DNA of 64,000 nt from Ruania rhizosphaerae (lineage in GTDB: Bacteria > Actinomycetota > Actinomycetes > Actinomycetales > Beutenbergiaceae): assembly GCF_009805705.1 (NCBI RefSeq), contig NZ_VSMB01000001.1, positions 186,001 through 250,000 of the forward strand. Reading direction: 5' to 3'. The notes under the pieces were generated by a model. The model was not told the origin of the DNA. It ran no database searches and saw nothing but the letters and a program-made list of their open reading frames with translations. Shown here piece by piece: positions 23,587-52,574 of this stretch. The translations under genes were made by a program, and so were the position numbers. The stretch's first letter is position 1; each line of letters starts with the position of its first letter.

Positions 23587-23657
23587 TGTTCTTCTCCTTT
23601 GAAGGGTCCTGCATTCTCTATGGGGTGGGCTCAGTGGACGTGCGACATACGACACGT

Positions 23658-25376: not shown

Positions 25377-25382
25377 GCGAAC

Positions 25383-28685: not shown

Positions 28686-28692
28686 GCCGAGA

Positions 28693-28706: not shown

Positions 28707-28717
28707 TGCGCGATGGG

Positions 28718-29746: not shown

Positions 29747-29752
29747 GCCTGA

Positions 29753-29758
29753 ATGCTA
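29753..29758 (-). promoter_or_regulatory. -10 element of a probable leaderless promoter for the LacI gene
   Basis: TAGCAT on the minus strand lies 6 nt before GTG 29746, with no ribosome-binding site between. Confidence 0.5.
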
Positions 29759-29811
29759 GGCGAACTGGTGGCACGAGAGCGCGTCTCGACGCCACCCTGG
29801 TGCTACCCAGA

Positions 29812-32183: not shown

Positions 32184-32189
32184 GTCAGC

Positions 32190-32219
32190 ACGGTAGCGTT
32201 TATTAGACCCACTAACAAA
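32190..32219. promoter_or_regulatory. ROK-type operator and -10 in the ROK/ThuA divergent region
   Basis: TTTATTAG (32199-32206) and CTAACAAA (32212-32219) form a 7/8 inverted repeat with a 5-bp centre, like XylR/ROK operators. TACCGT (32195-32190, minus strand) is the likely -10 of the leaderless ROK gene. The intergenic region is only 46 bp, so one site can control both directions. Confidence 0.6.
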
Positions 32220-32229
32220 TGGAGGCGAC

Positions 32230-32898: not shown

Positions 32899-33217
32899 CC
32901 GCGGACCAAGAGCGCGCTCGTCTCAACGTGGCCAGAATCACTCCGGCACAAGCGCGGCATCGAGATAGCTTCCTCACTACCCGAGCCGCGGCTGAAATCG
33001 GTGTGCGCACCCGGCAATGTGCGCTTAGTCCGCTGCCCACATCACTGAAATGCGTTGCGACACTGCCCCGACGAGCTACCCTGAAGTGGAACCACTGTCA
33101 GTGCTGCATAATCATGCATCGATCTGACAGTCATATGAGCAACACTCACCGGCCGGACGAGCGGGCGGGCCGGCTGAGGAGGTGGCCCACCCGCGCTTCT
33201 CACGTTCGGAGTTGAGC
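32899..33217. other. 319-bp intergenic region with reversed promoter-like arm (box 3)
   Basis: No credible gene. TGCATAATCATGCA lies at 33105-33118. Read leftward on the minus strand, the box is followed by CTGACA, a 17-bp spacer with GTTCCACTTCAGG, and TAGCTC (33072-33067). It matches the GH127 promoter arm closely, including sequence after the -10. No minus-strand gene follows it. To the right lie the GGAG and ATG of the GH-A clan enzyme at 33218. Confidence 0.55.
33105..33118. promoter_or_regulatory. shared regulatory box TGCATAATCATGCA (box 3)
   Basis: Identical over 14 bp to the site at 46878-46891, and 11/14 identical to 17204-17217 in the same orientation. TGCAT and ATGCA arms make it palindromic, as expected for a dimeric regulator. 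It is 100 bp upstream of the GH-A clan enzyme that opens the 33-52 kb glycosidase block. Confidence 0.7.
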
Positions 33218-35383
33218 ATGAGCGACATCCCCCTCGCCCCGTTCGTCATCGACCACCACCAGCGCGAACCGTCCGCAGCCAATCTGTCGTTCCTGCTGGA
33301 CGCCCCGGCCGGGCGGGACGGTTTCATCCGGGTCCAGGACGGGCACCTGGTCACCCCCGACGGCGAGCGCCTGCGCATCTGGGGTGTGAACCTCACCGGC
33401 TGGACCAGCGGCTCCACGCTGCTGCCACCCAAGGACGAAGCGCCCGTCTGGGCGGACACCCTGGCCCGATTCGGCATCAACTGCGTGCGCTTCCACTTCC
33501 TGGATCTGCCCCGGCGGAACGAGGCCGACACCCGGCCCAGTGGGCTGATCGACCCTGGGCCCGATCACACCCAGTCCTTCGACCCCGAACAGCTGGACCG
33601 GCTCGACTTCTTCGTCGCCGAGCTCAAACAGCGCGGGATCTACACCAACCTCAACCTCAACGTCGGCCGCACCTACAAGGCCGGCGACCACGTGCCCGAC
33701 GGTGAGGCGGTGAGGATCTGGAAGGGCATGACCTTCATCGGCGAGCGCCTGATCGAGCTGCAGAAGGACTACGCCCGCGACCTGCTCACACACCACAACC
33801 CCTACACCGGCAACGAGTACGCGCACGAGCCCGCGGTGGCGATCGTGGAGATCGTGAACGAGAACTCCCTGCAGGAGTTCTGGATGCGCAACTGGCTCCG
33901 GGGCGAACGGACCACCGACAGCCCGGACATCCAGCTCGACTTCCCGCCGTTCTACGCCCGCCAGCTCGATGCGATGTATCAGGGGTGGCTGGCCGAGAAC
34001 CGCTCGGAAGCCCAACTGGCCGAGCTGCGAGACCTCGCCGGGGTCGCGGCAGGTGAGGTGATCCCGCGGCTGCGCGTGGAGCAGTTCGCCGAGGCACCCA
34101 CGTCGCTGTTCCACGCCGAGGGGGAGTTCTACGGCGCCGTCGAACGCACCTTCTTCCTCGACATGAAGCGCTACCTCACCGACGAGTTGGGCGTCGAGTC
34201 GGTGATCGTCGGCTGTGCCGATCACACCTACTGGATTCCGAACCAGCCGATCATCGCCGGCACCTCCGAGCTCGATGTGGTCGACGGTCACGTGTACTGG
34301 CAACACCCGGCGATCTGGGGCGCGCGCAACACTCCGATGGTCGATGACCCGCTGGACTCCACCATCGTCAAGCTCAGCCGCTCCCCGGTGGCCGGCAAGC
34401 CGTTCACGGTGAGCGAGGTCAATCACCCGAACCCGAACTCTTCCGCGGCCGAGATGATCCCGGTCCTCGCCGCCTATGCCGCCTTCCAGGACTGGGACGG
34501 CATCTTCTTCTACACCTTCGAGCCGAAGCTGCAGGGTCAGTACCAGCCCCATGTGGCCGACAATTTCGACATCACGCTCGATCCGGTGAAGATGATCCAG
34601 ATGGCGGCCGGGGCGCTGATCTTCTCCCGGGCCGACGTGCAGCCCGCGCGGGAGACCGTCAGCCGTTCCTACTCGGCCGAACAGGTGCTGGAGAGCATGC
34701 GGCTGCCGGAATCGGCCCGCCCCTACTTCACGCCGGGATTCCCGGTCTCGACGGCGTTGCGGCATGGGCTCCGGATCTCCTCCCTCGACGGCGAGCCCAC
34801 CGCCGACCACGGACCGGAGCAACCCGGCCCCTACCTCGCCGACACCGGCGAGCTCGGCTGGTACGTCGAGGACGAGCGCGGCGGCCTGGTGACGATCGAC
34901 ACCGACCGCACTCAGGCCCTGGTCGGGCACGTGAAGGCCCACGGGCGCAGCACGCGCCACCTGAGCGCCGACGTCGTCAACGAGTTCTGCGCGATCACCC
35001 TCAGCGCGCTGGATGATCAACCGATCCCTCGCAGTGAACGGCTGCTTCTCACGGTGTGCTCCCGCATCGAGAACACCGGCGCCCAGTGGAACGCCCGCCG
35101 CACACTCTGGGAGACCTGGGGCGAGGGCCCGACGCTGATCGAACCCGTGACGGGCTGGCTGGTGCTGACCGACCTGCAGGGTCCGATCGACATCCAGGTC
35201 ACCCCTCTCGACGGCTCGGACCGGCCGATCGGCGAGCCGCTGCACGCCCGCCGGCTGGAGATCGGGTGGGAGATCCCACTCGGCGACCCCGCCACCACCC
35301 AGTACCTGCTGCACCCGGTGCGCTCGGCCGAGCAGGCCCAGCGCCTCGCTCAAGGCGGACAGCAGTGGGAGTTCTTCGGCTGA
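33218..35383 (+). CDS. clan GH-A (GH5-like) glycosidase, cytoplasmic
   Basis: 721 residues from ATG 33218 with GGAG 6 nt upstream; the GTG at 33182 has no ribosome-binding site. TIM barrel: GVNLTGWTSGS, FGINCVRFHFLDLPRR, acid/base Glu215 in VEIVNENS and nucleophile Glu400 in FTVSEVNHPNP, the clan GH-A arrangement. The C-terminal 250 residues form beta-rich accessory domains. Cellulase-like in fold, but the large size, lack of a signal peptide and context suggest an exo-acting enzyme on an imported oligosaccharide. Specific GH family uncertain. It is followed after 78 bp by GH95 on the same strand. Confidence 0.75.
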   Translation: MSDIPLAPFVIDHHQREPSAANLSFLLDAPAGRDGFIRVQDGHLVTPDGERLRIWGVNLTGWTSGSTLLPPKDEAPVWADTLARFGINCVRFHFLDLPRRNEADTRPSGLIDPGPDHTQSFDPEQLDRLDFFVAELKQRGIYTNLNLNVGRTYKAGDHVPDGEAVRIWKGMTFIGERLIELQKDYARDLLTHHNPYTGNEYAHEPAVAIVEIVNENSLQEFWMRNWLRGERTTDSPDIQLDFPPFYARQLDAMYQGWLAENRSEAQLAELRDLAGVAAGEVIPRLRVEQFAEAPTSLFHAEGEFYGAVERTFFLDMKRYLTDELGVESVIVGCADHTYWIPNQPIIAGTSELDVVDGHVYWQHPAIWGARNTPMVDDPLDSTIVKLSRSPVAGKPFTVSEVNHPNPNSSAAEMIPVLAAYAAFQDWDGIFFYTFEPKLQGQYQPHVADNFDITLDPVKMIQMAAGALIFSRADVQPARETVSRSYSAEQVLESMRLPESARPYFTPGFPVSTALRHGLRISSLDGEPTADHGPEQPGPYLADTGELGWYVEDERGGLVTIDTDRTQALVGHVKAHGRSTRHLSADVVNEFCAITLSALDDQPIPRSERLLLTVCSRIENTGAQWNARRTLWETWGEGPTLIEPVTGWLVLTDLQGPIDIQVTPLDGSDRPIGEPLHARRLEIGWEIPLGDPATTQYLLHPVRSAEQAQRLAQGGQQWEFFG

Positions 35384-35461
35384 CCGGCCCACGACTCCCA
35401 TCCCCACCAGGACAACCCTGGCGAGAACCTCTTCCTATCCCGTGAGAAAGCGGAGCACATC

Positions 35462-37885
35462 GTGACCACCCCGGACGACGACCTCACCCTCTGGTACACC
35501 ACCCCTGCCCGAACCTGGCAGGAGACGTTGCTGCTGGGCAACGGCCACCTCGGCGCCAGCGTGTGGGGTGGCGTGGAACAGGAGGTGATCGACCTCAACG
35601 AGGACACCCTCTGGACCGGCGAGCCCGGGTACGAGCCCAACCCGAAGGCACCGGGCGCCCTGCCCGAGGTGCGCCGACTGCTGCTTGCCGGCGAGTACGC
35701 CCGCGCACAGGAGCTCGCCGCAGACGCCCTCGGCGGGATCGGCGGCACGGGGCTGTACATGCCGCTGGGCCGGCTCACGCTCGACCTTCCCTTCGGTGAG
35801 GTGAGCGGCTATCGCCGCCAGCTCGATCTTTCTGCGGCGACGGCGCAGGTCACCTTCACCCATGACGGCGTCACCTACCGCCGGGAGGTCTTCGCGTCGC
35901 ATCCGGCCGGTGCGCTGGTCGTGCGGCTGAGTGCGGACCGCCCGGGGATGGTTTCGTTCCGGGCGTCGCTGTCCAGCCAGCTGCGGCACGAGACCGGCAC
36001 AGTGGCCGGCAGGGATGGCCCGGTGCTGCGGATGTCCGGCCGTGCCCCGATGCGTGCGTTCGACTACTCGGGGCAGACCCGCGAGCCGGAGTATGACGAC
36101 GGCCCCGAACAACGGGGAATGCGATGGGAAGCGCGACTCGCAGCCATCGCCGAGGGCGGCACGGTGGCGATCAGCGAGGACGCTGACGTCGTGATCGCCG
36201 ACGGGTGTGACGCCGTGACACTCATCGTGGCCGCGCGCACGAGCTACGCCGGCCCGCACGCGAGTCCGAGCCAGGCCGGCCTGGACGAGAAGGCGCTGGT
36301 CGAGGCGGACGTGAGGGACGCCGTCGGGAGGGACTACGAAGCCCTGCACGGCGAGCACGTGAGTGATCATGCCAACCTGTTCGGCCGGGTCCGGCTGGAC
36401 CTGGGACGCTCGGAAGCGGAGGCGCTGCCGACCGACGAGCGCGTGGCGGCGTATGTAGCGGGCAGCGGTGAAGATCCGGGGCTGGCGGCGCTGTACTACC
36501 AGTTCGGGCGGTACATCCTCATCGCCACCTCCCGGCCGGGCAGTCAGCCGGCGAATCTGCAGGGAATCTGGAACCCCTCGATCAACCCGGCGTGGGGGTC
36601 AAATTGGACAATCAACTGCAACGCCCAGATGAACTACTGGCCGGTGGAGGCGGCGAATCTGGCCGAATGCCATGAGCCGCTACTGGAACTGACGCGCGAG
36701 TTGAGTGAGAACGGGGCGCGGGTGGCGCGCGACCACTACGGCGCCCGCGGCTGGGTCTCGCACCAGGGCACCGACGTCTGGCGCTACGCTCAGCCGGTGG
36801 GCAGCAATCCACAATGGTCGAACTTCGTCGCCAGCAACGCCTGGCTGTGCCAGCACCTGTGGGAGCACTACGCGTTCTCAGGTGATCTCGATCAGCTTCG
36901 CCACGCGTGGCCGACACTTCGGGACGCTGCGGCCTTCCACCTGGACCTGCTCGTCGAGGAACCGGAGCACGGCTGGCTGGTGACGGCCCCGGACATCAAC
37001 TTCGAGAACATCTGGGTGGCACCGGATGGCACCACTGGCTCGCTGGCGATGGGCACCACGCCGACGACGCAGATGGTGCGCGAGCTGTTCACGAATGTTC
37101 TGACCGCATCCCGGCTGCTGGAGGAGAGGGCAGAGCTGGAGGACGAGGCAGCGGGTGTGTGCGAGGAGATCGCGGCGGCCCTGCCGCGGCTGGCGCCGAT
37201 GCAGATCAGCCCGACCACCGGGCAGCTGCAGGAGTACCTGGAGGACTGGGGGCGCACGATGAAGGCGGAGGTACTCTCCAGCTGGGGCGCGGTGTGTAGT
37301 GCGCAGATCCACCCGCGCCGCACGCCCGAGCTGGCGGCAGCGTTGCGGCGGATCTTCGACACCGAGCGCTGGTGGGAGGAGAAGGAAGATCCGCTCAAGG
37401 GCTCGTGCCTGGGCAGCTGGGAGGGCGGGTTCCAGTCGATGGCCTACGCCCGGCTCGGCGACGGGGATGCGGCACTACGAGTGTTCGACCTCCACCTGCA
37501 GAAGGCGGTGCAGCCCAACCTCGGATCGAAGTTCATCGGGCACTCCCCGACGAACCCGATGTTCCAGATCGACGGCAACCTCGGCCAGACCAGCGCTGTG
37601 AACGAGATGCTGCTGCAGAGCCACGTACATGAGGGCGGCGTGTACGAGTTCGACCTGCTGCCGGCACTGCCGGGCCAGTGGTCCGACGGCTCGGTTGCCG
37701 GCCTGCGCGGGCGCGGCGGCGTCGAGGTGGACCTGCGCTGGCGCGGCGGGGCGCTCGAATCCGCCACCATCCGGTCGGTCACGGGCACGACCACCCGGGT
37801 GCGCTACGGGGAGCGCACACGCGACCTGGCTCTGGCGCCGGGTGAGCAGATCCGTCTCGACCGGGATCTGGCGACCGCGGAGTGA
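35462..37885 (+). CDS. GH95 alpha-L-fucosidase/alpha-L-galactosidase
   Basis: 807 residues from GTG 35462 (GCGGAG upstream). N-terminal beta-sandwich with the family opening [23 protein letters not shown] and [13 protein letters not shown]. Catalytic (alpha/alpha)6 domain with [32 protein letters not shown] near residues 370-403, and [19 protein letters not shown] near 700. No signal peptide. GH95 enzymes remove alpha-1,2-L-fucose or, in RG-II degradation, alpha-L-galactose. Neighbouring GH78 and DUF4038 genes make plant cell-wall side chains the more likely target than host glycans (inference). Confidence 0.93.
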
Positions 37886-37916
37886 CCGCGCCATCCGAGC
37901 GGCGAGGGCGGCCCCA

Positions 37917-37959
37917 GTGTCGCTCGGAGCGCGAGATTCGACACTCACACCACCCTCGC
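37917..37959 (+). repeat. intergenic palindromic repeat, second family, copy 1
   Basis: 43 bp opening GTGTCG and containing CGACAC, with 38 of 43 bases identical to 39342-39384 in the same orientation. GTGTCG/CGACAC arms can pair. It lies 31 bp after GH95, just beyond the 3' end of the DUF4143 ATPase gene. Confidence 0.75.
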
Positions 37960-37968
37960 GATCGCTGC

Positions 37969-39222
37969 TCAGTGCTCCCAGAGGGTGGCCAGCGGCAACG
38001 CCCAGAGCCGGTCACCGAAGGGCACGGCACGTGTTCCCGTATACAGGACCACCCCGGCGACGAACCGCTCACCCACCTTGTCGCGGAGAAGTTCCAGACC
38101 ACGGAAATCACCCGCTCCGACCGTCGCAGCAGACTTCACCTCGACGCCGACCACCTCGCGGCGACGATCTTCGAGCACGATGTCGACCTCACGACCGTGG
38201 TTGTCACGGTAGTGGGACAGCGAGTAGGACTTCTGCGACCAAGCACGCTGTTTCACCAGCTCACCGACCACGAAGCCCTCGACGAATCCACCGGTCAACG
38301 TCGAGGACACCTCGCGCTCGAGGCCGTCGACGTCGACTCCGGCGAGATGGGCCGCAAGACCAGTGTCGCTCAGATACACCTTCGGCGTCCGCACCGCGCG
38401 AGTTGCTCGGTTGTTCGACCAGCCCGGGACTACGCGGATCAGGTAGACCGATTGCATCGCCCGGAGGTAGGCGGGCACGGAACGTTCCGGTATGTCGACC
38501 TCTCGCGCGGCTCGCGCTGTGACGAACTCGCTGCCGTTGCGGGCGGCGAGAACGTCGAGCAGCGGTCCGAGCCGATCCAGATGCGTGATCCCGGAGACAT
38601 CGGTGGTGTCCTTCGAGAGCACACGATCGGCGTAGTTCTCCAACCAGCGGCCGCGCGCACGGGCGGACGCCTCGCGGAGTTCCGGGAATGCGGGGGCAGC
38701 CGCGATCTCCAGGTAGTCGCGGCGGGTGTACGCGGGTCGATCTGCGGGCACCCCGGCCGGTAGCCTCCAGGCATACGCAGCGAAGTCCTCGACCCGCTCT
38801 GCCACCTCCCCCCGACTGAGGCCCTCGAGCGGAATGGTCTGCGCCCGGCCTGCCAGCGATTCCTGCGCTCCTCGCAGTGACAGCAGATCAGCCGAACCTG
38901 TGACGATGAAACGGCCTGGTCGTCGGTCCTGATCGACCGCTGCCTTCAATGACGTGAGCAGCGCAGGGACTCGCTGGATCTCGTCGATGGCGAGCAGACC
39001 GTCCGGATACTGCATCGCGAACCCGTCTGGGTCCCGCTCAGCGGCTGCGCGGTCCACGGCGAGATCGAGGTTGATCGTCCGCGCATCTCTGTCCGAGATG
39101 AGTTGCTGCATCAAGGTGCTCTTGCCGACCTGCCGGGCTCCGCTGATCACCGTGACCGGAGTGTCAGCAAGCGTCTCTTCCGCGAGATCACTCACGTTCC
39201 GATGGACGAGATGGGGCGCCAT
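37969..39222 (-). CDS. DUF4143-type AAA ATPase
   Basis: 417 residues from ATG 39222, which has a TAGCCT -10 at 39235-39230, 7 nt upstream; ATG 39228 is an alternative. AAA core: Walker A SGARQVGKSTL near residue 30, Walker B LLAIDEIQRVP near 80, sensor region FIVTGSADLLSL. C-terminal DUF4143 region with VYLSDTGLAAHLAG and a PD-(D/E)xK-like segment REVDIVLEDRRREVVGVEVKSA. Widespread family of unknown role, often accessory and sometimes in defence contexts. It stands alone, interrupts the glycosidase block, lies between two copies of an intergenic repeat and has 22-bp tandem repeats just upstream, all signs of a mobile or recently gained gene. Confidence 0.85.
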   Translation of the reverse strand: MAPHLVHRNVSDLAEETLADTPVTVISGARQVGKSTLMQQLISDRDARTINLDLAVDRAAAERDPDGFAMQYPDGLLAIDEIQRVPALLTSLKAAVDQDRRPGRFIVTGSADLLSLRGAQESLAGRAQTIPLEGLSRGEVAERVEDFAAYAWRLPAGVPADRPAYTRRDYLEIAAAPAFPELREASARARGRWLENYADRVLSKDTTDVSGITHLDRLGPLLDVLAARNGSEFVTARAAREVDIPERSVPAYLRAMQSVYLIRVVPGWSNNRATRAVRTPKVYLSDTGLAAHLAGVDVDGLEREVSSTLTGGFVEGFVVGELVKQRAWSQKSYSLSHYRDNHGREVDIVLEDRRREVVGVEVKSAATVGAGDFRGLELLRDKVGERFVAGVVLYTGTRAVPFGDRLWALPLATLWEH

Positions 39223-39229
39223 AGGCATC

Positions 39230-39235
39230 AGGCTA
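39230..39235 (-). promoter_or_regulatory. -10 element of a probable leaderless promoter for the DUF4143 ATPase
   Basis: Minus-strand TAGCCT ends 7 nt before ATG 39222. No Shine-Dalgarno sequence is present. Confidence 0.4.
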
Positions 39236-39246
39236 GCGTTGGTTCT

Positions 39247-39323
39247 GCGGATTCGCCAGGCTACGGTTGCGGATTCGCCGGATCGCCGTTGCGGATTCGC
39301 CAGGTCTTCGTTGCGGATTCGCC
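39247..39323. repeat. 22-bp tandem repeat array upstream of the DUF4143 ATPase
   Basis: GCGGATTCGCC occurs at 39247, 39269, 39291 and 39313, exactly 22 bp apart, with partly conserved spacers. It starts 25 bp upstream of the ATPase start and 12 bp upstream of its -10. Regular spacing of two helical turns could place four protein dimers on one DNA face. Confidence 0.8.
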
Positions 39324-39341
39324 CCGGCGACGGTGGCCTGG

Positions 39342-39384
39342 GTGTCGTTCAGAGCGCGAGATTCGACACTCAAGCCACCTTCGC
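39342..39384 (+). repeat. intergenic palindromic repeat, second family, copy 2
   Basis: Matches 37917-37959 at 38 of 43 positions, same orientation. With copy 1 it brackets the DUF4143 ATPase gene and its tandem-repeat array; it ends 20 bp before the GH78 stop. Confidence 0.75.
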
Positions 39385-39403
39385 CGGGCGGGCCGCGCTC
39401 AGT

Positions 39404-41986: not shown

Positions 41987-41998
41987 GGGAACCACCTT

Positions 41999-42014
41999 CG
42001 TTTCGAAACGTTTC
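41999..42014. promoter_or_regulatory. overlapping LacI-type palindromes in the GH78/DUF4038 divergent region
   Basis: CGTTTCGAAACG (41999-42010) and GAAACGTTTC (42005-42014) are perfect overlapping palindromes, giving three alternating GTTTC/GAAAC half-sites 13 bp upstream of GH78. A further CGTTTCAC is at 42063-42070. A LacI-family repressor is the likely binder, but this site differs from the TTTACCGGTAAA at 28695. Confidence 0.65.
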
Positions 42015-42138
42015 ACTCTCATCGTAGTAGACGCTAGATTGGTGGTCTGACGCAACTGAGCACGTTTCACATGCCCTGGCACGCAGCGCCCGGGCAAGCG
42101 AGAGCCCGTCGATGTGCGGGACGACGAGGAGGTCGGGT

Positions 42139-43689: not shown

Positions 43690-43737
43690 GACGACCGCCC
43701 ACCTGCACGCGCCCCAGGGCCACAAGGAGAGAACAGC

Positions 43738-46700
43738 ATGAGTACCGCCCGCTACTGGGAGTCCTATGCCCCGGGTGAGGGACGCCGTCGGCCTCGTGCC
43801 GAGGCACGCACGGATGCCCGCACCCTCACCTTGAACGGCACCTGGCGGTTCCGGCTGTGCCCGACGGCGGAGGGCACCGGGGCAGGTTTCCTCGCCGAGG
43901 ACTTCGACGACAGCGGGTGGGACGAGATCCGCGTGCCCTCGCACTGGGTGCTCCAGGACGTCACGCCGCTGGCCGGTGGCGAGCCACGGTCGCTGCGAGG
44001 GACGGCCGAGGGACCGCTGTACACGAACACCGCGTTCCCGATCCCGATCGACCCGCCCCGGGTTCCGACCGAGAACCCGACCGGCGACTACCGGCTCGTC
44101 TTCGACGCCCCGGCGGACTGGGGCGCCTCGATCCTGCGGCTGCGCGGGGCTGACTCCTGCGCGAAGGTATGGCTGAACGGGGTCGAGATCGGTTGGTCCA
44201 CCGGGAGCCGCCTGCCGGTGGAGTACGACGCCCCGGTGCGCCCCGGCCGGAACGTGCTGTGCGTCCGGGTGCACCGCTGGTCGGCGGGCACCTACCTGGA
44301 GGACCAGGACATGTGGTGGCTGCCCGGGATCTTCCGGGACGTGGACGTGATCGAGCGCCCGGCCGCCGCGATCGAGGACCACTTCGTTCACGCTGATTAC
44401 GACCACACCACCGGTATCGGCACGCTCCGGGTGGACGCCGAGGTGACCGACGGGTCACCCGCCCGGGTGCAGGTGCCCGAGCTCGGGATCGACGTCCCGG
44501 CCGGGGAGACTGTCACCGCCGCGGTCACGCCGTGGAGCGCGGACCGCCCACGCCTGTACCGCGGCACCCTCGCGACGGCGGAGGAGACCATCGAGCTGGC
44601 GATCGGTTTCCGCCGGGTCGAGATCGCCGACGGCGTCCTGCTCGCCAACGGTGCACCGTTGCGTTTTCACGGCGTGAACCGGCACGAGCATGACCCGGCC
44701 ACCGGCCGCACCCAGGACCGGGCCACGATGATCCGCGACATCGAGATCATGAAGCGCGCCAACATCGACGCCGTCCGCACCAGCCACTATCCCCCGCACC
44801 CGGACTTCCTGAGCCTGTGCGACGAGTACGGGCTGTGGGTGGTCGAGGAATGCGACCTGGAGACCCACGGGTTCATCTACGCCGGCTGGGAGAACAACCC
44901 GCCCGACGACCCCGCCTGGTTCGGCGCCCTGCAGGACCGCATCGAGCGGATGGTCGAACCGGACAAGAACCACCCGAGCGTGGTGATCTGGTCGATGGCG
45001 AACGAGAGCTGGACCGGCGCCGGATTCGACCTGCTCGAGCAGTGGATCCGCGAGCGCGACCCCTCGCGCCCGGTGCTCTACGAACGCGATCCCTCCTATC
45101 GCAACTCCGACTTCTACTCCTGCATGTACCCCGAGCTGGACGCCCTGGAGGCGATCGGACGGCGCGAGGAGCCGCGACCCGACAACGTCACCGACGCCGA
45201 GGACGCCCGCCGCCGCACCCTGCCGTTCCTGCTGGTGGAGTACGCGCACGCGATGGGCAACGGCCCCGGCTCGCTGCAGGACTACCAGCACATCCTGGAG
45301 AGCTCGGACCGCTTCTGCGGCGGCTTCGTCTGGGAGTGGATCGACCACGGCTTCGATGCCCGCACCGCCGACGGCACACCGTTCACCCTGCACGGTGGCG
45401 CGGTCGATTTCCGGCCCACCGGCGGCCGGTTCTGCCTGGACGGGCTCGTCTTCGCCGACCGCACCCCCAGCCCCGGCCTGACCCAACTGGCCAAGGCCTA
45501 CGAGCCGGTACGGATCGCGATCGGGGACGCGATCACGGTGTCGAACCGGCGCCATGCCACCGACACCGCGGACCTGCAGTGGCGCTGGGAGCTGCTCGTG
45601 GACGGCCGGCAGATCGCCGAGGGCGGGCTCGAGGTCCCCGCGGTCCCCGCCGGAGGCACCGTCGAGGTGGCCCTCCCTGGGGCCATGCCCGAACTGCCCG
45701 GCGACGGCGAACCTCACCTGAGCGTCGAGGCCCGCCTCGCGTACAACACCGCCTGGGCCGTGGCGGGCCACGTGGTCTCGTGGGGCCAGCACCAGCTGCG
45801 CTCCGGTGGATCGCGCGTTCAGACAGCACCCGCGGGCACAGGCTCAGGCGCTGGAAACACGGTGGCGCCCGAGGCAGCCCGGACGACCGGCGCCCGAGGC
45901 GAGGGAGACATCCGGGCGCACGGGACGCCGTCGGGAATCGTGCTCGGACCGGCCACCTTCGAGGGCGAGACCGGACGCCTGGTGCGCCTGGGAGACCTCG
46001 AGCTGGAGGGGCCGTGGCTGGATGTGCACCGCGCCCCCACCGAGAACGACCGGGGCCAGGGAGGCCGCAACGACCTCTCGGCGGCGTGGTCCGCCGTCGG
46101 GATCGATCGGATGCTGCACCGTACGCTGGACGTGCAGGCGGACGGCGATCGGGTGCGCGTGAACGGACGGGTCGCCGCAGCCACGCATCCGCACGCGTTG
46201 GAGTACCAGCTCGACTGGTCCCTGCACGCCGGCCTGCTGTGGCTGGACGCGCAGGTCGACTTCGCCGGGCCGTGGGACTCGACGCCCCTCAAGGGGCTGG
46301 AGATCGTGATTCCGCGGTTGGGGTTGTTGTTCAGGCTGCCGGGTGGCTACGGGCGCGCCGCGTGGTTCGGGCGCGGCCCGGGTGACAGCTACGCGGACTC
46401 CTTCGCGGGAACCCGGGTGGGCCGGTGGCAGGCGGCGATCGACGATCTGCAGGTCCACTATCCGGTGCCGCAGGAGAACGGCAACCACGTGCACACGCGC
46501 GAGTTGACGGTCTCGGGACCCGGGGTGCCAGACCTGCGCGCGGTGGGCGATCCACTGTTCGACTTCACCACCCGCCGCTGGACGTCGAAAGATCTACAGC
46601 AGGCGCGCTTCCCGCACGAGCTGCGCGATTCCGGGCACGTCTGGCTGAACCTGGACTATGGGCAACTCGGCCTGGGATCGGCCTCCGTGGGGCCGGCACT

Positions 46701-46770
46701 TCCGGAGCGGTATCGAGTGGCACGCACCGCGACCTCGTTCCGGATGGGGCTCGGGGTGGACTCCGCCTGA
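43738..46770 (+). CDS. GH2 LacZ-type beta-galactosidase
   Basis: 1010 residues from ATG 43738 (AAGGAGAGAACAGC upstream), close to E. coli LacZ in length. Five-domain GH2 layout: jelly-roll (45-215, GNVLCVRVHRWSAGTYLEDQ-type segment split near 190), Ig-like domain, barrel with RFHGVNRHEHDP, acid/base Glu423 in WSMANESWTG and nucleophile Glu501 in LVEYAHAMGNGPGS. The C-terminal Bgal_small_N domain (about 725-1010) has DVHRAPTENDRG and YPVPQENGNH. Intracellular; cleaves beta-galactosides or related beta-linked residues from imported fragments. Likely same operon as the DUF4038 gene. Confidence 0.9.
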   Translation: MSTARYWESYAPGEGRRRPRAEARTDARTLTLNGTWRFRLCPTAEGTGAGFLAEDFDDSGWDEIRVPSHWVLQDVTPLAGGEPRSLRGTAEGPLYTNTAFPIPIDPPRVPTENPTGDYRLVFDAPADWGASILRLRGADSCAKVWLNGVEIGWSTGSRLPVEYDAPVRPGRNVLCVRVHRWSAGTYLEDQDMWWLPGIFRDVDVIERPAAAIEDHFVHADYDHTTGIGTLRVDAEVTDGSPARVQVPELGIDVPAGETVTAAVTPWSADRPRLYRGTLATAEETIELAIGFRRVEIADGVLLANGAPLRFHGVNRHEHDPATGRTQDRATMIRDIEIMKRANIDAVRTSHYPPHPDFLSLCDEYGLWVVEECDLETHGFIYAGWENNPPDDPAWFGALQDRIERMVEPDKNHPSVVIWSMANESWTGAGFDLLEQWIRERDPSRPVLYERDPSYRNSDFYSCMYPELDALEAIGRREEPRPDNVTDAEDARRRTLPFLLVEYAHAMGNGPGSLQDYQHILESSDRFCGGFVWEWIDHGFDARTADGTPFTLHGGAVDFRPTGGRFCLDGLVFADRTPSPGLTQLAKAYEPVRIAIGDAITVSNRRHATDTADLQWRWELLVDGRQIAEGGLEVPAVPAGGTVEVALPGAMPELPGDGEPHLSVEARLAYNTAWAVAGHVVSWGQHQLRSGGSRVQTAPAGTGSGAGNTVAPEAARTTGARGEGDIRAHGTPSGIVLGPATFEGETGRLVRLGDLELEGPWLDVHRAPTENDRGQGGRNDLSAAWSAVGIDRMLHRTLDVQADGDRVRVNGRVAAATHPHALEYQLDWSLHAGLLWLDAQVDFAGPWDSTPLKGLEIVIPRLGLLFRLPGGYGRAAWFGRGPGDSYADSFAGTRVGRWQAAIDDLQVHYPVPQENGNHVHTRELTVSGPGVPDLRAVGDPLFDFTTRRWTSKDLQQARFPHELRDSGHVWLNLDYGQLGLGSASVGPALPERYRVARTATSFRMGLGVDSA

Positions 46771-46877
46771 CCGATGCCTAGGCGGCTGATCCCAGGCGTC
46801 CATGCCCGCAATCAACCACATTGCAGGGTGACGATCGCGATGGGCGCATCGATTCCCCACTGTCCGGGGCACCACTG

Positions 46878-46923
46878 TGCATAATCATGCAGGCTTGATT
46901 CTGTAGTTACCCTCAGTTAGGCT
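46878..46923 (+). promoter_or_regulatory. regulatory box and promoter of the CUT1 transporter operon (box 2)
   Basis: TGCATAATCATGCA (46878-46891) is followed after 3 bp by TTGATT (46895-46900), a 17-bp spacer containing GTTACCCTCAG, and TAGGCT (46918-46923). The layout and the spacer sequence match the GH127 promoter (minus strand, 17217-17167). Confidence 0.7.
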
Positions 46924-46982
46924 CACTGCGAGCCACACAGCGGGCCGCGCCTCGGTGCGCGACCCTCGTCAAGGAGGACGTC

Positions 46983-48341
46983 ATGAACATTCGTCACCGG
47001 CGGCGCACCGTCGTCACTGCGAGCGCACTGCTCGCCACATCACTGACCCTCGCCGCCTGTTCCGGCGGAGAGGACACCGATTCCGGATCAGGTTCGGACA
47101 CCGGCTCGGACTCCGATGCAGGGTCGAGCATCGGCACCGACCCGGACAGCTTCGAGGTGATGAGCTCGAACGAGAACCCCACCCTGCGCGACCAACTCGA
47201 CGCCCTCGCGGCGAACCAGTGCTCGGCCGAGAACGAGGCGCTCCCGCTGGAGCACCGCACCATCGCCCAGGCCGACACGGTGCAGCAGATCACATTGCTC
47301 GCCAGCCAGGGTGCGCTCCCCTCGCACTTCATCGCCGGCACCGATCAGGTCCGGCCCACGGGCGATCTCGGTGGTAGCGAGCTGGTGCTCGACTACCAGG
47401 AGGCCTTCACCGAGTCCGGCGCCTGGGAGAACGTGCTCCCCGCCGCCGCCTCGACGATCGAGTCGGTCTACGGCCAGATGGTCTCGATGCCGTACCAGTA
47501 CAACCTCGAAGGCTTCTGGTACAACAAGGAGATCCTCGCCGAGCTCGGCCTCGAGGAGCCGCAGAGCTACGACGAGCTCGTCGACGCTGCGGACGCCGCC
47601 GCCGAGGCCGGCTACATCCCGATCGCCCAGGCCGGAGCTGACGGCTGGCCGCTGACCCGGCTGATGGGTCTGTACATCTTCCGCAACGTCGGCCCCGACG
47701 CCATGGCTGCCGTGCGCGACGGTGAGGCGAGCCTGACCGATCCGGAGTACGTGGCCGGTGCCCAGGCACTGCAGGATCTCGCTCTGGGCGGCGCACTCGG
47801 GGAGGGCTTCATCTCCCGCACCGGCGACCAGGCCACGGCCGCCCTGCTGAGCGGACAGGCGCTGATGAAGTACGACGGCACCTGGCTGCTGAGCGCCGTC
47901 AATGACCCGGAGCGCAACGAGGTCGGCGAAGAGAACATCGGCTTCATGCCGTTCCCGGACGTCTCCGGGGGCGCCGGCAGCGCCGACCAGTACCCCGCGA
48001 ACGCCGGTGCTGCGATGGCGATCAACCCCGAGACCTACGGCCCTCTGACAGCCGACTGGTTCGCCTGCATCGCTGAGAACTACGGCCAGCAGGCCCTCAG
48101 CGACGCCGGTGTGCTCTCGGGCTTCGCCGTGAACGGTGACGTCGGGGACATCCCGGCCGCTACCGCCGACATCCAGGAGCGGATGTCCTCCATCGACGAG
48201 ACCGTGCTGTGGTTCGAGGCGCTGCTCGACTCCGAGAGCAACTCCCTCGCTTCGACGAACGCGTCGCTGCTGGTCAACGGCGACATGAGCGCCGAGGAGT
48301 ACATGACGCAGCTGCAGGACAGCATCGACTCCAACCGCTGA
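46983..48341 (+). CDS. CUT1 ABC transporter sugar-binding lipoprotein
   Basis: 452 residues, ATG after CAAGGAGGACGTC. Signal peptide with lipobox LAAC, then a Ser/Asp/Gly-rich linker to about residue 55. The mature region is an SBP_bac_1 type protein (TVQQITLLASQGALPSHFIAG, MPYQYNLEGFWYNKEIL, GLEEPQSYDELVDAADAAAE, DGTWLLSAVNDPE). First gene of a three-gene transporter with two permeases. A hairpin follows it. Regulated through box 2, shared with the GH127 operon, so its cargo probably includes the oligosaccharide that GH127 trims (inference). Confidence 0.9.
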   Translation: MNIRHRRRTVVTASALLATSLTLAACSGGEDTDSGSGSDTGSDSDAGSSIGTDPDSFEVMSSNENPTLRDQLDALAANQCSAENEALPLEHRTIAQADTVQQITLLASQGALPSHFIAGTDQVRPTGDLGGSELVLDYQEAFTESGAWENVLPAAASTIESVYGQMVSMPYQYNLEGFWYNKEILAELGLEEPQSYDELVDAADAAAEAGYIPIAQAGADGWPLTRLMGLYIFRNVGPDAMAAVRDGEASLTDPEYVAGAQALQDLALGGALGEGFISRTGDQATAALLSGQALMKYDGTWLLSAVNDPERNEVGEENIGFMPFPDVSGGAGSADQYPANAGAAMAINPETYGPLTADWFACIAENYGQQALSDAGVLSGFAVNGDVGDIPAATADIQERMSSIDETVLWFEALLDSESNSLASTNASLLVNGDMSAEEYMTQLQDSIDSNR

Positions 48342-48349
48342 CGCGAGCT

Positions 48350-48378
48350 CGCCGGCCCTACCCCGGGTGGGGCCGGCG
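48350..48378 (+). terminator. intercistronic hairpin after the CUT1 binding-protein gene
   Basis: CGCCGGCCC (48350-48358) pairs with GGGCCGGCG (48370-48378) across an 11-nt loop, 24 bp before the permease start. Same position and likely role as the hairpin at 7585-7618. Confidence 0.65.
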
Positions 48379-48402
48379 ACGTCTGCACGAAAGGATCACG
48401 CG

Positions 48403-49284
48403 ATGTCGCGCGTCTTCGGGGACAAGAAGACCATCCTCATCCTTCTGCTCCCCACTCTCTCGATCTACGTCCTGCTGAAGGTCATCCCGGTCGCCTGGTC
48501 GCTCGGACTGTCCTTCTTCCAGGGCAACACCCTGCGAGGGTTCGAGTTCGTCGGGCTGGACAACTTCCGGGAGTTCGCCGGCGACTCCGCGGCCCTGAAC
48601 TCGGTATGGGTGAGCGTCAGCTTCGCCGTCATCGTGACCGTCGCGCAGGTAACTTTCGGCTACCTGCTCGCTCTGCTGTACGTCTTCGTGCTGCGCAAGG
48701 GATCGGCGTTCGTGCGCACCGCCGTCTTCTTCCCGATGGTGCTGCCCACCGTGGCGGTGGCGCTGCTGTTCAAGAGCCTGATCGCCGTCGGAGAGAACCA
48801 GGGCCCGGTCAACGACGCCATCAACGCCTTCGGCGGCGAGAGCATCGAGTTCCTCGCCTCCACCGCCGGCACGATGACCATCGCGGTGATCATGACCCTG
48901 TGGAGCTCGATGGGCTTCTACGCGGTGCTGCTCTACACGGGCCTGCTGGACATCCCCGAGGAAGTGGTGGAGTCGGCACGGATGGACGGCGCCACCGGTC
49001 CTCGCCTCGTGGGGTACATCATCATCCCGCTCTCGCTGCCGATCCTGCTCTCGTCGATCATCTTCAGCCTGAACGCCACGCTCAAGGTGTTCGACAGCCT
49101 GCTCGCCCTGAACAACGGCGGGCCCGGCACCACCACCGCACCTCTCACCCTGTACATGTACCGGACCGCCTTCGAGTACGCCGAGTACGGCTACGGCAGC
49201 ACGATCGCCCTCGCACTGACGCTGCTGTGCCTGGTGTTCACGCTGGTGGTCTTCCGGCCCTCGAGCAAGCGCGTGGAGGACTGA
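48403..49284 (+). CDS. CUT1 ABC transporter permease (MalF/UgpA-like)
   Basis: 293 residues from ATG 48403 with AAAGGA upstream. Six membrane segments; EAA loop ESARMDGATGPRLVGYIIIPLSLP near residue 190. Typical ILLLPTLSIYVLLKVIPVAWSLGLSF opening split by helix 1. Works with the following permease and the binding protein; no ATPase gene is present, so a shared MsmK/UgpC-type ATPase is expected elsewhere. One base separates it from the next gene. Confidence 0.9.
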   Translation: MSRVFGDKKTILILLLPTLSIYVLLKVIPVAWSLGLSFFQGNTLRGFEFVGLDNFREFAGDSAALNSVWVSVSFAVIVTVAQVTFGYLLALLYVFVLRKGSAFVRTAVFFPMVLPTVAVALLFKSLIAVGENQGPVNDAINAFGGESIEFLASTAGTMTIAVIMTLWSSMGFYAVLLYTGLLDIPEEVVESARMDGATGPRLVGYIIIPLSLPILLSSIIFSLNATLKVFDSLLALNNGGPGTTTAPLTLYMYRTAFEYAEYGYGSTIALALTLLCLVFTLVVFRPSSKRVED

Positions 49285-49285
49285 C

Positions 49286-50191
49286 ATGACCACCGCACCG
49301 AGCACTGCGCCCGTTCAGCTCCCCACTCCGCGTCCGCAAGCCCGGCCGGCTCGGCGTGCGGCACGCCGTATCGTGCGCCGCCTTCCTGTCTGGCTCCTGG
49401 TCACAGTGCTGCTGGTGGTGATGCTCTACCCGCAGTTCTGGATGATCATGGGCTCGTTCAAGACCCAGACGGAGTTCTTTGCGAACCCCACCTGGGCGCT
49501 GCCGGAGCAGTTCAACCTCGACAACTACATCGACGCATTCACGCGTGGCAACGTCGGGATCAACTACCGCAACTCCATGCTGGTCACACTGCCCTCGGTG
49601 GCACTGATCGTGCTCGCCGGTCTCGCGGCCGGGTACGCCCTGGAGATCATGATCTGGAAGGGCCGCCGGCAGGTCCTGCTGTTCGTGATGGGCGGGATCA
49701 TGGTGCCCGGGCAGATGATCCTGGTGCCGCTGTTCACCGTGTACTTCAAGATCGGCATCACCGACAGCCTGCTGCCGATGATCCTCACCTATACGGCGAT
49801 GGGGATCCCGCTGACGACGTTCCTGATGGCGGCCTATTTCCGGGCCATACCCAGGGAGATCTTCGAAGCCGCCACGGTGGACGGCTGCGGGCCGCTGCGC
49901 TCGTTCTTCGTGATCGCGATGCCGTTGATGAAGAACTCGATGCTGACGATCGCGCTGATCCAGTTCTTCAGCGTGTTCAACGATCTGCTCATCGCGCTGA
50001 CGTTCACCACGCGCCCGGAACTGGCCACCATCCAGGTGGGGCTGCTCAGCCTGTCGGACCAGTACGGGTCGACTCAGTACGGTGCGTTGTTCGCGGCCAT
50101 CAGTATCAACATCATCGTGCTGCTGATCGTGTTCGTCTTCCTGAACAAGAAGATCATGGCGGGCCTCGCGGCCGGTTCGGTGAAGGGCTGA
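49286..50191 (+). CDS. CUT1 ABC transporter permease (MalG/UgpE-like)
   Basis: 301 residues. Pro/Arg-rich cytoplasmic N-terminus (1-35), six membrane segments, MLYPQFWMIMGSFKTQTEFF near residue 50 and EAA loop EAATVDGCGPLRSFFVIAMPLMK near 195. Ends the transporter operon before a strong terminator at 50216-50250. Confidence 0.9.
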   Translation: MTTAPSTAPVQLPTPRPQARPARRAARRIVRRLPVWLLVTVLLVVMLYPQFWMIMGSFKTQTEFFANPTWALPEQFNLDNYIDAFTRGNVGINYRNSMLVTLPSVALIVLAGLAAGYALEIMIWKGRRQVLLFVMGGIMVPGQMILVPLFTVYFKIGITDSLLPMILTYTAMGIPLTTFLMAAYFRAIPREIFEAATVDGCGPLRSFFVIAMPLMKNSMLTIALIQFFSVFNDLLIALTFTTRPELATIQVGLLSLSDQYGSTQYGALFAAISINIIVLLIVFVFLNKKIMAGLAAGSVKG

Positions 50192-50215
50192 CGCCCCACG
50201 AGGCGTCCGGGCGGC

Positions 50216-50250
50216 GGCGCCCGATCGAGGTCTGGGCTCGGTCGGGCGCC
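50216..50250 (+). terminator. terminator hairpin after the CUT1 operon
   Basis: GGCGCCCGATCGAG (50216-50229) pairs with CTCGGTCGGGCGCC (50237-50250) with one mismatch and a 7-nt loop, 24 bp after the permease stop. Confidence 0.8.
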
Positions 50251-50444
50251 GGACTCACTGCATCGCCGCCACAATGCGGCCCTCACCTCCATGGCGCAGG
50301 ACACCGAGTTGGCGACCAGTTGCTGCACGTCTACTGCGCTGTGCGCCGGCTGGCTGAGCCGGTCACGGTTGGTGATCGGACGATCGGTGAGCGGACCGCA
50401 TCTGAACACCGGGGAATTGGCCTGGCGTGGTCGGAGGTGACCCC

Positions 50445-52574
50445 ATGACCACGGGACCCTCTGCGCGGAGGCGAGGTACGCCGTCGGGAAGCATCGATCG
50501 CGAGGCGGTGGTGCGCCGGCATAACGTGCGCTACGCGGCCCCGTGCCCGGAGGCCCCGCTCTCGGTGGGCAACGGCGAGTTCGCGGTGACGGTGGACCAC
50601 ACCGGGCTGCAGACCTTCGGCGAGCGCTACGAGCGGGGTGCCGCCCGTGCTCGCGGGGAGGCTGCGACGCCGCTGGGGATGCAGGCGCAGTGGGGGTTCC
50701 ACTGGTCGCCGAACCCGCGCGGGTACACCCTGGCCGACACGATGGAGAGCTTCGAGAGCCCCCGCGGGCCGGTGGAGTATCCGACGGCGTACGACTTCCG
50801 CGAGTCGCGCGAGGAGTCCGAGGCCGCCGGGCGTGGGGCCGGGTACTACTACTGGACGAATCCGCAGCGCCTGCATCTGGCGCAGGTGGGGCTGCTGCTG
50901 GACGGGCGGGTGCCGCTGTGGGAGCAGGTCGAGGGCGTGGGCCAGGAGCTGGACCTGTGGACCGGGGTGGTCATCAGCCGGTTCCTGATCGAGGGGCACG
51001 CGGTGCAGGTCCGGACGGCGGTCGATCCGGAGCGGGACTGCCTCGCCTTCGAGATGGAGTCGGCTGCGGAGGTGGCGGAGCGTCTCGCGGTACGGGTCGC
51101 CTTCCCGTACGTGGAGGAGAGCTTCGAGGCACCGCCGGTGTGGGACCAGCCGGAGGCGCACAGGACCGACTATCGGGCCGACGGCGGAGCCCACCTGTGG
51201 GAGCGCACCGTGGACGAGGCGCGCTATCAGGTGCGGGCGATGGGCACGTTCTCGGTGAGCGGGAACGGGCACGCGTGGGTGCTGCAGTCGACGGAGCCGG
51301 TGCTGCGCTGTGCGGTGGAGTTCGCTCCGGAGCTGCCCGCCGACCCGATCTCCGCCCCCGGCGAGGTTCTGGCGGGTTCGGCGCGCGGGTGGGAGGACTT
51401 CTGGCGCCGCGGTGCGGCCGTGGACCTGGGGGCCAGTACCGCCGAGGGGGCGCATGAGCTGGAGCGCCGGATCGTGCTCTCGCAGTACCAGACGCGGGTG
51501 CACTGTTCGGGGTCAACCCCGCCGCAGGAGACGGGTCTGGTGTGCAACAGCTGGGGCGGCACGTTCCACCTGGAGATGCACTGGTGGCACGCGGCGCACT
51601 TCCCGGCGTGGGGGCGCCCGGAGCTGCTCGAGCGGAGTCTGGCTTGGTATGCGTCCATCTTGCCGGTGGCACGGGCGGGGGCGACCGCGCAGGGGTTCAG
51701 GGGTGCGCGCTGGCCCAAGCATGTGGGGCCGGAGGGGATCGAGAGTCCGAACGAGATCGGGCCGCTGCTGATCTGGCAGCAGCCGCACGTGATCAGCTAC
51801 GCCGAGTTGTTGCGCACCGGTTCTGCGGACGAGGCGGCGGTGCGGGAGCAGTACCGGGTGCTGGTGGACGAGACGGCGGAGTTCCTGGCGTCGTTCGCGC
51901 TGGCGGAAGAAGGTGGCGCGTCCAGTGCTTGCCACCTGCCGCCGCCGCTGATGCCCGCACAGGAGGTCTACGGCGCTGTGGATACGTGGGATCCGCTGTT
52001 CGAGGTGGCCTATGTGCGGTGGGCGCTACTGACGGCGCTGGCGTGGCGGCGGGCGGACGGCCGGGAGGAGCCGGAGCTGTGGAGGCAGGTGGCTGACGGG
52101 CTGCGGCCGGTGGTCAGCGAGGACGGTCACTACGACGCCGTGCAACGCCCGCCGCGGACGGCTTATACCGATCACCCGGCGATGCTCGGCGCCCTCGGGG
52201 TGGTGCCGGACACTGGCGCGATCGACCACGAGGCGATGCTGCGCACCCTGGAGCGGGCCTGCGAGAAGTGGAACTGGCGCAGCGCCTGGGGCTGGGACTT
52301 CCCGATGATCGCGATGTGCGCCACCCGGCTGGGGCGGGCGGACATTGCGCTGGCGGCCTTGCTGCGCGCCGAGGACAAGAACACGCATCTGCCGAACGGG
52401 CACAACCGGCAGGTTCCGCACCGGATGCCGCTATACCTGCCGGGCAATGGCGGCCTGCTGATGGCTACGGCCCTCCTGTTCGGAGGGTGGGTGGAGCCCG
52501 ACGGCGTTCATCGCCGGGTGGAGCTGCCGGAAGGGTGGTCAGTGGTCGCCGAGGGGTTCCCGCCGCGGCCATAA
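50445..52574 (+). CDS. GH65-like (alpha/alpha)6-barrel glycosidase of unclear specificity
   Basis: 709 residues from ATG 50445 with GGAGGT upstream. No signal peptide. N-terminal beta-sandwich with LSVGNGEFAVTVDHTGLQTF, MQAQWGFHW. Catalytic barrel-like half contains NSWGGTFHLEMHWWH near residue 367, GFRGARWPKHVGPEGIESPN near 420, LIWQQPHVISYAELL near 440 and RSAWGWDFPMIAM near 610, the pattern of GH65-type and related inverting enzymes. I do not recognise a characterised relative with certainty. It stands after the CUT1 operon terminator on the same strand, so it probably acts on the imported oligosaccharide. Confidence 0.65.
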   Translation: MTTGPSARRRGTPSGSIDREAVVRRHNVRYAAPCPEAPLSVGNGEFAVTVDHTGLQTFGERYERGAARARGEAATPLGMQAQWGFHWSPNPRGYTLADTMESFESPRGPVEYPTAYDFRESREESEAAGRGAGYYYWTNPQRLHLAQVGLLLDGRVPLWEQVEGVGQELDLWTGVVISRFLIEGHAVQVRTAVDPERDCLAFEMESAAEVAERLAVRVAFPYVEESFEAPPVWDQPEAHRTDYRADGGAHLWERTVDEARYQVRAMGTFSVSGNGHAWVLQSTEPVLRCAVEFAPELPADPISAPGEVLAGSARGWEDFWRRGAAVDLGASTAEGAHELERRIVLSQYQTRVHCSGSTPPQETGLVCNSWGGTFHLEMHWWHAAHFPAWGRPELLERSLAWYASILPVARAGATAQGFRGARWPKHVGPEGIESPNEIGPLLIWQQPHVISYAELLRTGSADEAAVREQYRVLVDETAEFLASFALAEEGGASSACHLPPPLMPAQEVYGAVDTWDPLFEVAYVRWALLTALAWRRADGREEPELWRQVADGLRPVVSEDGHYDAVQRPPRTAYTDHPAMLGALGVVPDTGAIDHEAMLRTLERACEKWNWRSAWGWDFPMIAMCATRLGRADIALAALLRAEDKNTHLPNGHNRQVPHRMPLYLPGNGGLLMATALLFGGWVEPDGVHRRVELPEGWSVVAEGFPPRP

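Follow-up and report, generated by a model that had tools for sequence, protein, structure and literature searches.

Does an actinobacterium take apart rhamnogalacturonan II (RG-II), and what would become in it of the aceric acid that this glycan contains? Few plant glycans are as complex as RG-II, whose degradation has been described chiefly in Bacteroides. The question is raised by 64 kb of the genome of Ruania rhizosphaerae (G000:C11:186001-250000, in an assembly of 4.43 Mb and 43 contigs; the window, in what follows, is this whole stretch, with positions counted from its first letter). The window holds a set of glycosidases with a CUT1 importer and, some 15 kb away, a quartet of genes for a glycoside hydrolase of family GH127, a RuBisCO-like protein (RLP), a DUF1537-type kinase and an Asp/Glu-racemase-fold protein. 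As argued below, the locus quite probably serves the use of RG-II side chain B, which is more specific than the side chains of RG-II or rhamnogalacturonan I (RG-I) proposed in the initial annotation, and we lean slightly towards a quartet within it that is devoted to aceric acid. All of the evidence is comparative: the enzyme functions discussed rest on comparison of sequences, and domain calls are Pfam matches above curated cut-offs, unless stated otherwise.

The quartet and the glycosidase set

The GH127, RLP and kinase genes form a tight minus-strand run, from which the racemase-fold gene diverges. The GH127 protein (15142-17211, minus strand; likely start at an internal ATG near 17127, downstream of the start of the listed open reading frame) has the Pfam domains of its family and scores 747.1 bits with the aceric acid hydrolase model NF049879. 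Its closest solved relative is 5mqo (594 bits; the next, 4qjy, gives 352 bits), which we take to be BT1003, the RG-II aceric acid enzyme. Judged by its sequence, it is nearest to the aceric acid hydrolase family. The kinase (12565-13950, minus strand; PF07005/PF17042, the four-carbon acid sugar type) and the RLP (13886-15148, minus strand; PF00016, best PDB match 3nwr) had been described as an OiaK/OiaX-like pair. Both proteins are indeed there, but their scores of 255.8 bits (NF042436, OiaK) and 424.1 bits (NF042437, OiaX) lie far under the equivalog cut-offs of 700 bits, so that the pair need not act on apiose. A plain OiaK/OiaX pair was rejected on these missed cut-offs, although the OiaX model must be narrow, since it is also missed (440.1 bits) by the RLP of L096, a locus with the apiose genes ApnL and ApnO.

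The fourth protein (17217-17969, plus strand, likely start near 17268; PF01177) has a confidently predicted structure (pLDDT 95.1) with Foldseek matches to 3ojc (E=1.8e-09) and 3ixm (E=4.2e-09), and shares its fold with the Asp/Glu racemase superfamily, including arylmalonate decarboxylase. Two-base Asp/Glu racemases have two catalytic cysteines, whereas alignments of 23 and of 17 sequences of the racemase-fold protein have a single invariant one (the site of the absent second cysteine being placed by motif order). Its action as a two-base racemase is therefore unlikely, and it is treated here as a candidate isomerase.

Several glycosidase calls of the initial annotation are borne out by Pfam: GH95 (35462-37885, plus strand; catalytic domain PF22124, 414.8 bits, above cut-off; PDB 7kmq, E=1.4e-148), a GH78 alpha-L-rhamnosidase (39404-42097, minus strand; PF17389, 417.4 bits; PDB 6gsz, E=4.1e-249; the open reading frame as listed begins too far upstream) and a LacZ-type GH2 (43738-46770, plus strand; PF02836, 286.3 bits; PDB 1yq2, E=3.3e-212), a candidate galactosidase for galactosyl-aceric acid. 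The same holds for the CUT1 importer, which consists of a solute-binding lipoprotein, SBP1 (46983-48341; PF01547), and two permeases (48367-49284 and 49286-50191; PF00528), all on the plus strand, with no ATPase gene among them (46983-50191). The enzyme called DUF4038/GH140-like (42112-43689, plus strand) is a DUF5060-PF13204-DUF5605 protein. Its PF13204 domain is clear (61.4 bits, cut-off 26.5), but its sole PDB match at E<=0.01 is 4n0r, a structure named putative (E=2.1e-86); the protein is apiosidase-like and a candidate for GH140 proper.

The calls of a GH-A clan and a GH65-like enzyme come down to weak matches, with E about 0.1. The first concerns a 733-aa putative glycosidase, possibly of clan GH-A (33182-35383, plus strand), with no Pfam match at 0.001 and no NCBIfam match at 0.1; it has weak similarity to GH5 proteins (Pfam Cellulase, E=0.14; a PDB GH5 mannanase, E=0.06). 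Its family occurs in 6 of 59 relatives, the genome itself included, and in only one of 396 genomes of the phylum, which is again its own. The second is a 715-aa putative six-hairpin glycosidase (50427-52574, plus strand; GH65m, E=0.1) with no Pfam match at 0.001, no PDB match at E<=10, a poor predicted structure (pLDDT 35) and a relative in L131 (44% in the alignment). The claim that signal peptides are lacking stands for the seven glycosidases, at whose N-termini no export signal is evident by eye; SBP1, on the other hand, starts with a lipoprotein-type signal.

What ties the glycosidase set to the quartet is, in the first place, its position in relatives. In the congeners G004, G005 and G001, whose five named glycosidases are 84-96% and GH127 proteins 90-98% identical to those of the window, the 733-aa gene comes immediately after the racemase gene and leads into the remainder of the set; in G002 GH78 takes that place, and again the quartet adjoins the glycosidases. 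The ~15.2 kb that part them in the window (17968-33197) correspond to an empty site in G004, by which the extra DNA was placed, and the gene order in G005 and G001 agrees. Since this block is missing in relatives, where set and quartet abut, the two belong together, as a shared operator-like box had suggested: the glycosidase set is, from these comparisons of gene order, the larger part of one ancestral cluster with GH127, RLP, kinase and racemase.

The box is the second tie, and the link to GH127 that the initial annotation drew from it is real. At up to two mismatches TGCATAATNATGCA occurs at three places in the 64 kb (17204, 33105 and 46878; six strand hits, with 0.15 expected): as TGCATAATGATTCA between the GH127 and racemase-fold genes (17204-17217, minus strand) and as TGCATAATCATGCA before the 733-aa gene (33105-33118, plus strand) and before SBP1 (46878-46891, plus strand). 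A looser pattern run over the whole genome gave 31 matches, against 10 for a reversed control, and the window's three sites are the sole zero-mismatch box and two of the three with one mismatch. Variants of the box precede SBP1 in G001, G002, G004 and G005, and box-like inverted repeats lie upstream of GH127 in relatives; before the 733-aa gene of G004 no box was found at up to one mismatch. (A long inverted repeat, GCTTGTGGTG...CACCACAAGC, was seen by eye at the L020/L021 junction of G004, between the racemase and 733-aa genes and near the site of the window's 15 kb block; it is a possible terminator or operator.)

The module in other genomes and the case for side chain B

Of 396 genomes searched from the order, 14 encode the RLP, each with one match at E<=1e-100. 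In the regions read, which are those of the RLP genomes other than G007, the four genes are contiguous in G020, G017, G021, G014, G003, G002, G001, G004 and G005. The racemase gene of G114 is ~3.4 kb off, beyond the importer, the contig of G010 stops inside the kinase, and G028 (45% identity) has RLP and kinase only. Eight RLPs, each from a locus linked to GH127, were then aligned and used to scan public genomes, and the best 80 of 435 loci were taken. Group A, the 28 loci among these with RLP identity of at least 71%, was read with flanks of up to 10 kb on each side. GH127 lies within 72 bp of the RLP gene and on the same strand in all 28, and a racemase-fold gene is present in 27 (in the exception, L070, the sequence reaches no more than 1.1 kb upstream of the RLP); it adjoins GH127 in 7 of the 27 and a CUT1 permease in 20. 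SBP1 is found in 25 of the 28, GH78 in 19 and LacZ in 18. The 28 loci fall within one clade of 33 rows and are therefore not independent. GH127 proteins of five further RLP loci score 616-758 bits with NF049879 (five of eight proteins scored).

Conservation of the box is looser. A position weight matrix places 21 of 27 regions above the 95% level of shuffled sequence, an overestimate because the matrix was refitted on regions that it scored, and the six misses are loci in which GH127 follows racemase and GH78 genes in an operon; under the stricter pattern, at up to two mismatches, group A yields a box at 10 of its 28 loci. Of 48 clustered loci, 17 share a SorC-type regulator, a relative of which (63%) is encoded outside the window at G000:C11:257240-258199, between the set and ApnL/ApnO genes; that such a regulator binds the box is what we infer.

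Parts of the arrangement recur in other phyla. Two Sphingobacterium loci hold racemase, RLP, kinase, GH78, GH137-like and GH2 genes, with racemase, a 445-aa gene, RLP, kinase, GH78, GH137 and GH2 on one strand in L132. An acidobacterial locus combines racemase, RLP, a GH137-like gene and a weakly GH127-like protein. With the racemase as query, 40 plasmid records were obtained, and three of them were examined: that of Croceibacterium carries a GH127-domain protein, RLP, kinase and a GH137-like gene, and elsewhere a DUF5060 protein beside a racemase; that of Rufibacter has an RLP-kinase-racemase run beside a pectinesterase; the third, from Rhizobium, is referred to below. When loci that have a racemase, GH127 or GH137-like gene and lack ApnO are marked on a 93-row tree of the RLPs, the mark takes 11 changes, some of which may stem from cut flanks, and the association has probably, by these sequence comparisons, formed more than once.

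Some loci in the same scan depart from this picture. Those of Kribbella (L085-L087, L122) have RLP and kinase with two DUF5060-type proteins and GH78, and no GH127 or racemase matches, L085 adding a GH28 and a protein with weak similarity to GH127; they are perhaps a variant RG-II locus. In Bacillota (L093, L098, L103, L106, L117) RLP and kinase are accompanied by an alcohol dehydrogenase and a class II aldolase, and no match for ApnO or the racemase was found; this would be a third kind of setting for RLPs of this group. L078, from a record titled Planococcus, is a Microbacterium-like locus (RLP 76%) inside the actinobacterial clade, and so a mislabelled or contaminated assembly, or a transfer.

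A GH137-like gene also bears on side chain B. In the window it is a remnant (50243-50443, plus strand), which can be aligned well with the intact G004 copy (L021:15535-16548) over no more than residues 81-103 and 296-336 of the 337. That copy encodes a 337-aa propeller matching the GH137 half of a BT0996-type model (60.5 bits; best PDB match 5mt2, E=1.4e-13), and the Sphingobacterium copy is a clear member (480.8 bits with the same model; 5mt2, E=2.9e-111). BT0996 and BT1003 are side chain B enzymes of Bacteroides thetaiotaomicron. The RG-II loci of that organism and the present cluster have in common an aceric-type GH127, GH137-like, GH78 and GH95 enzymes and a GH2 galactosidase; the Ruania cluster differs in being actinobacterial, in ABC import, in the lack of evident export signals and in its linked kinase/RLP/racemase-fold module. 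PMC8218411 gives the sugars of side chain B as apiose, rhamnose, aceric acid (3-C-carboxy-5-deoxy-L-xylose), galactose, 2-O-methylfucose and arabinopyranose, with further rhamnose and arabinofuranose in many plants; the Bacteroides GH2 BT_0993 cleaves galactose beta-1,2-linked to aceric acid (PMC11739564). It is because of the aceric-type GH127, the GH137-like neighbour in relatives, GH78, GH95, the LacZ-type GH2 and the apiosidase-like protein that we regard side chain B as the probable substrate.

Aceric acid or apiose?

From gene content, linkage, conservation, the operator-like box and co-occurrence we infer the following reactions, all of which are put conditionally. Oligosaccharides would be imported by the CUT1 system and trimmed in the cytoplasm, which fits the lack of evident export signals. 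The GH137-like enzyme, whose gene is lost in the window, would remove arabinofuranose, GH78 rhamnose and GH95 (methyl)fucose. The LacZ-type GH2 would take galactose off aceric acid, the apiosidase-like protein would free apiose, and GH127 would release aceric acid. The 733-aa and 715-aa proteins would be left for arabinopyranose and the rhamnose-apiose bond; in this matching of eight bonds with eight enzymes, itself conjectural, these two are assigned by elimination.

Whether kinase and RLP then degrade aceric acid is, in our estimate, evenly poised. Aceric acid might be isomerized to the 2-ketose HOCH2-CO-C(OH)(COOH)-CHOH-CH3, which, by comparison of the two structures, is 3-oxo-isoapionate with CHOH-CH3 replacing CH2OH. 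The isomerase would be the racemase-fold protein; this is the least certain step, and the complete sequence, in which kinase and RLP go on to cleave the resulting beta-keto acid, is offered tentatively and with doubt uppermost. The kinase would phosphorylate the CH2OH group of the ketose. The RLP might decarboxylate the product to a 5-deoxypentulose 1-phosphate, to be split by an aldolase into dihydroxyacetone phosphate and acetaldehyde, or else transcarboxylate and hydrolyse it to 3-phosphoglycerate and lactate. Apiose-pathway RLPs either decarboxylate or transcarboxylate and hydrolyse 3-oxo-isoapionate 4-phosphate (PMC6302742). An FAD/iron-sulfur oxidase with Pfam domains of the glycolate/lactate dehydrogenase type lies near the module in 10 of 48 loci, its gene sharing 4 bp with that of the kinase in L057 and L058, and has a Ruania homologue (51%) on another contig. 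It would suit a lactate product of matching stereochemistry.

The strong rival to an RLP-based aceric acid pathway accepts the RG-II locus and gives its kinase and RLP the OiaK/OiaX function instead. Apiose would pass through apionolactone, apionate and 3-oxo-isoapionate by way of an SDR enzyme, ApnL and ApnO, kinase and RLP would follow, and GH127 would stand beside the RLP merely because both belong to RG-II use. The oxidative D-apiose pathway, reportedly described by Carter et al. in 2018 (cited in PMC6302742), has in common with the present module an adjacent DUF1537 kinase and RLP and a proposed beta-keto acid phosphate substrate; the module differs in its scores, far under the equivalog cut-offs, and in its partners, GH127 being in the operon and a racemase-fold gene linked to it in place of ApnO. 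In the rival's favour, the RLP shares 50-54% identity with its counterparts in L096, L124, L126 and L130, four loci with ApnL homologues (the one scored, that of L126, reaches 816 bits, cut-off 750), and in the Ruania genome the SorC-type regulator gene stands between the glycosidase set and ApnL/ApnO. Among 46 genomes chosen for holding the RLP, 33 have an ApnO-like protein at E<=1e-20. Yet 13 have none, and five of these (G003, G014, G017, G020 and L081) have all four quartet genes, contiguous in the first four, which are 99-100% complete; the search does pick up a proteobacterial ApnO-like protein at 39% identity. There is also no ApnO match in the flanks of the 28 group A loci (up to 10 kb on each side, five contigs being shorter). 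A lack of ApnO in the window's group, as read from those flanks, was overturned by the genome-wide search. Among 43 distant loci, the 27 with an ApnO-like gene in the DNA covered have a racemase in 3 and a GH137-like gene in none, as against 7 and 3 of the 16 without.

Apiose may, moreover, have a route of its own. In L181-L185 and L187 (Microbacterium and Promicromonospora) ApnO stands amid most of an RLP-free run of MFS carrier, DhaK-type kinase, RpiB-like, TIM-like and TIM-barrel genes; L183 scores 751.9 bits for the DhaK type (cut-off 492), 203.6 for RpiB-like (168.2) and 160.2, under cut-off, for TIM-like, and its TIM-barrel protein had no match in the model scoring. Erwinia sp. E602 has a comparable group of genes, joined by a SorC-type regulator, and neither an RLP nor a DUF1537 kinase occurs within the 16.8 kb covered. 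The TIM-barrel protein beside ApnO is presumably a 3-oxo-isoapionate decarboxylase, and the Ruania genome has TIM-barrel and ApnO-like genes side by side. On balance we consider the assignment of kinase and RLP to apiose unlikely. That a common kinase and a common RLP act on both of the branched sugars, which yield the same beta-keto acid chemotype, would agree with the single RLP per genome, several of the 14 genomes having ApnO-like protein and GH127 quartet together, but it is distinctly improbable given the RLP-free apiose-type run in several carriers. The use of arabinogalactan, RG-I or flavonoid glycosides, with the resemblance to RG-II incidental, has in its favour that each of the families GH78, GH95, GH2 and GH127 is also active on other glycans of plants. 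It is very improbable nonetheless in view of the GH127 subtype, its GH137-like partner and the way in which, in other phyla, GH137-like genes accompany RLP, kinase and racemase: RG-I leaves the aceric type of GH127 and GH137 unexplained, and the arabinogalactan and flavonoid glycosides of the initial annotation were dropped on the same ground.

Several observations weigh against a side chain B locus with an aceric acid quartet. GH127 falls short of the aceric acid hydrolase equivalog cut-off (747.1 as against 950 bits, over residues 42-687), and the GH127-domain proteins of Croceibacterium and the acidobacterium reach only 87 and 93 bits over ~220 residues, so that the aceric-type enzyme itself is shown in Actinobacteria only. 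GH95, 733-aa, 715-aa and GH137-like families were found in none of the group A loci within their flanks, the window's own GH137-like gene is broken, a gene loss inside the cluster, and no extracellular depolymerase was identified in the glycosidase set. The Rhizobium plasmid carries a related racemase without RG-II context. No known type of aldose-ketose isomerase is conserved in the module, and we know of no precedent for the Asp/Glu-racemase fold in that role. Finally, an ApnO-like protein is encoded in 23 of 24 group A genomes searched, so that most carriers of the module could use apiose too, and beyond the set, at a distance of ~23-26 kb, the Ruania genome itself carries ApnL-like and ApnO-like genes; apiose may thus be what the RLP serves. 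Around this ApnO the RLP-free branch is not complete: the best DhaK homologue is on another contig and, at 59%, similar to the copies of ApnO-less genomes (52-56%), for which reason kinase and RLP could still act on apiose here.

Neighbouring DNA and significance

The 15.2-kb block (17968-33197), which lies outside the system, has a lower third-position GC and holds a second CUT1 importer and carboxylesterase, GH2, LacI, GntR, ROK, MFS and ThuA-like genes; no transposase or integrase was found among Pfam matches of its scanned open reading frames. Its second CUT1 system, GH2, LacI, GntR and MFS genes were rejected as system parts, being missing at this place in relatives. Also rejected was a CUT2/ChvE-type importer (6417-12401), which is not in the corresponding region of G001 and whose solute-binding protein passes the cut-off for multiple-monosaccharide ChvE (506, cut-off 460). 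It is flanked by 67-nt direct repeats (84%; 5952-6018 and 12469-12535), G001 has E1 genes beside the kinase and no such block, and it looks like a movable cassette. The glycosidase set is itself split by a DUF4143 ATPase gene (37969-39228), absent at that site in G004 and G005 and present in G001 (94% identical). It has 60-nt direct repeats on its flanks (83%; 37900-37959 and 39325-39384) and beside it, at 39246-39323, repeat units starting TGCGGATTCGCC and spaced 22 nt; another DUF4143-like gene is at L141:11320-12561.

The open-access literature searched, which excluded the key papers on apiose pathways (2018) and on RG-II in Bacteroides (2017), yielded no catabolic route for aceric acid and, beyond a review's remark on apiose, nothing linking an RLP to RG-II. 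None of the matches listed for apionate/OiaC dealt with the pathway, and no literature was found on GH137 in Gram-positives. The enzyme families of the Ruania cluster are known ones in an unusual and conserved arrangement, and an RLP-based pathway for aceric acid is plausible. With a four-gene module in Actinobacteria and three-gene versions in other phyla, the question can be tested with a handful of proteins. If the pathway is as proposed, RuBisCO-like proteins would gain a further natural substrate, and their superfamily a further reaction, and the question of what becomes of aceric acid, one of the rarest sugars of RG-II, would be closed.

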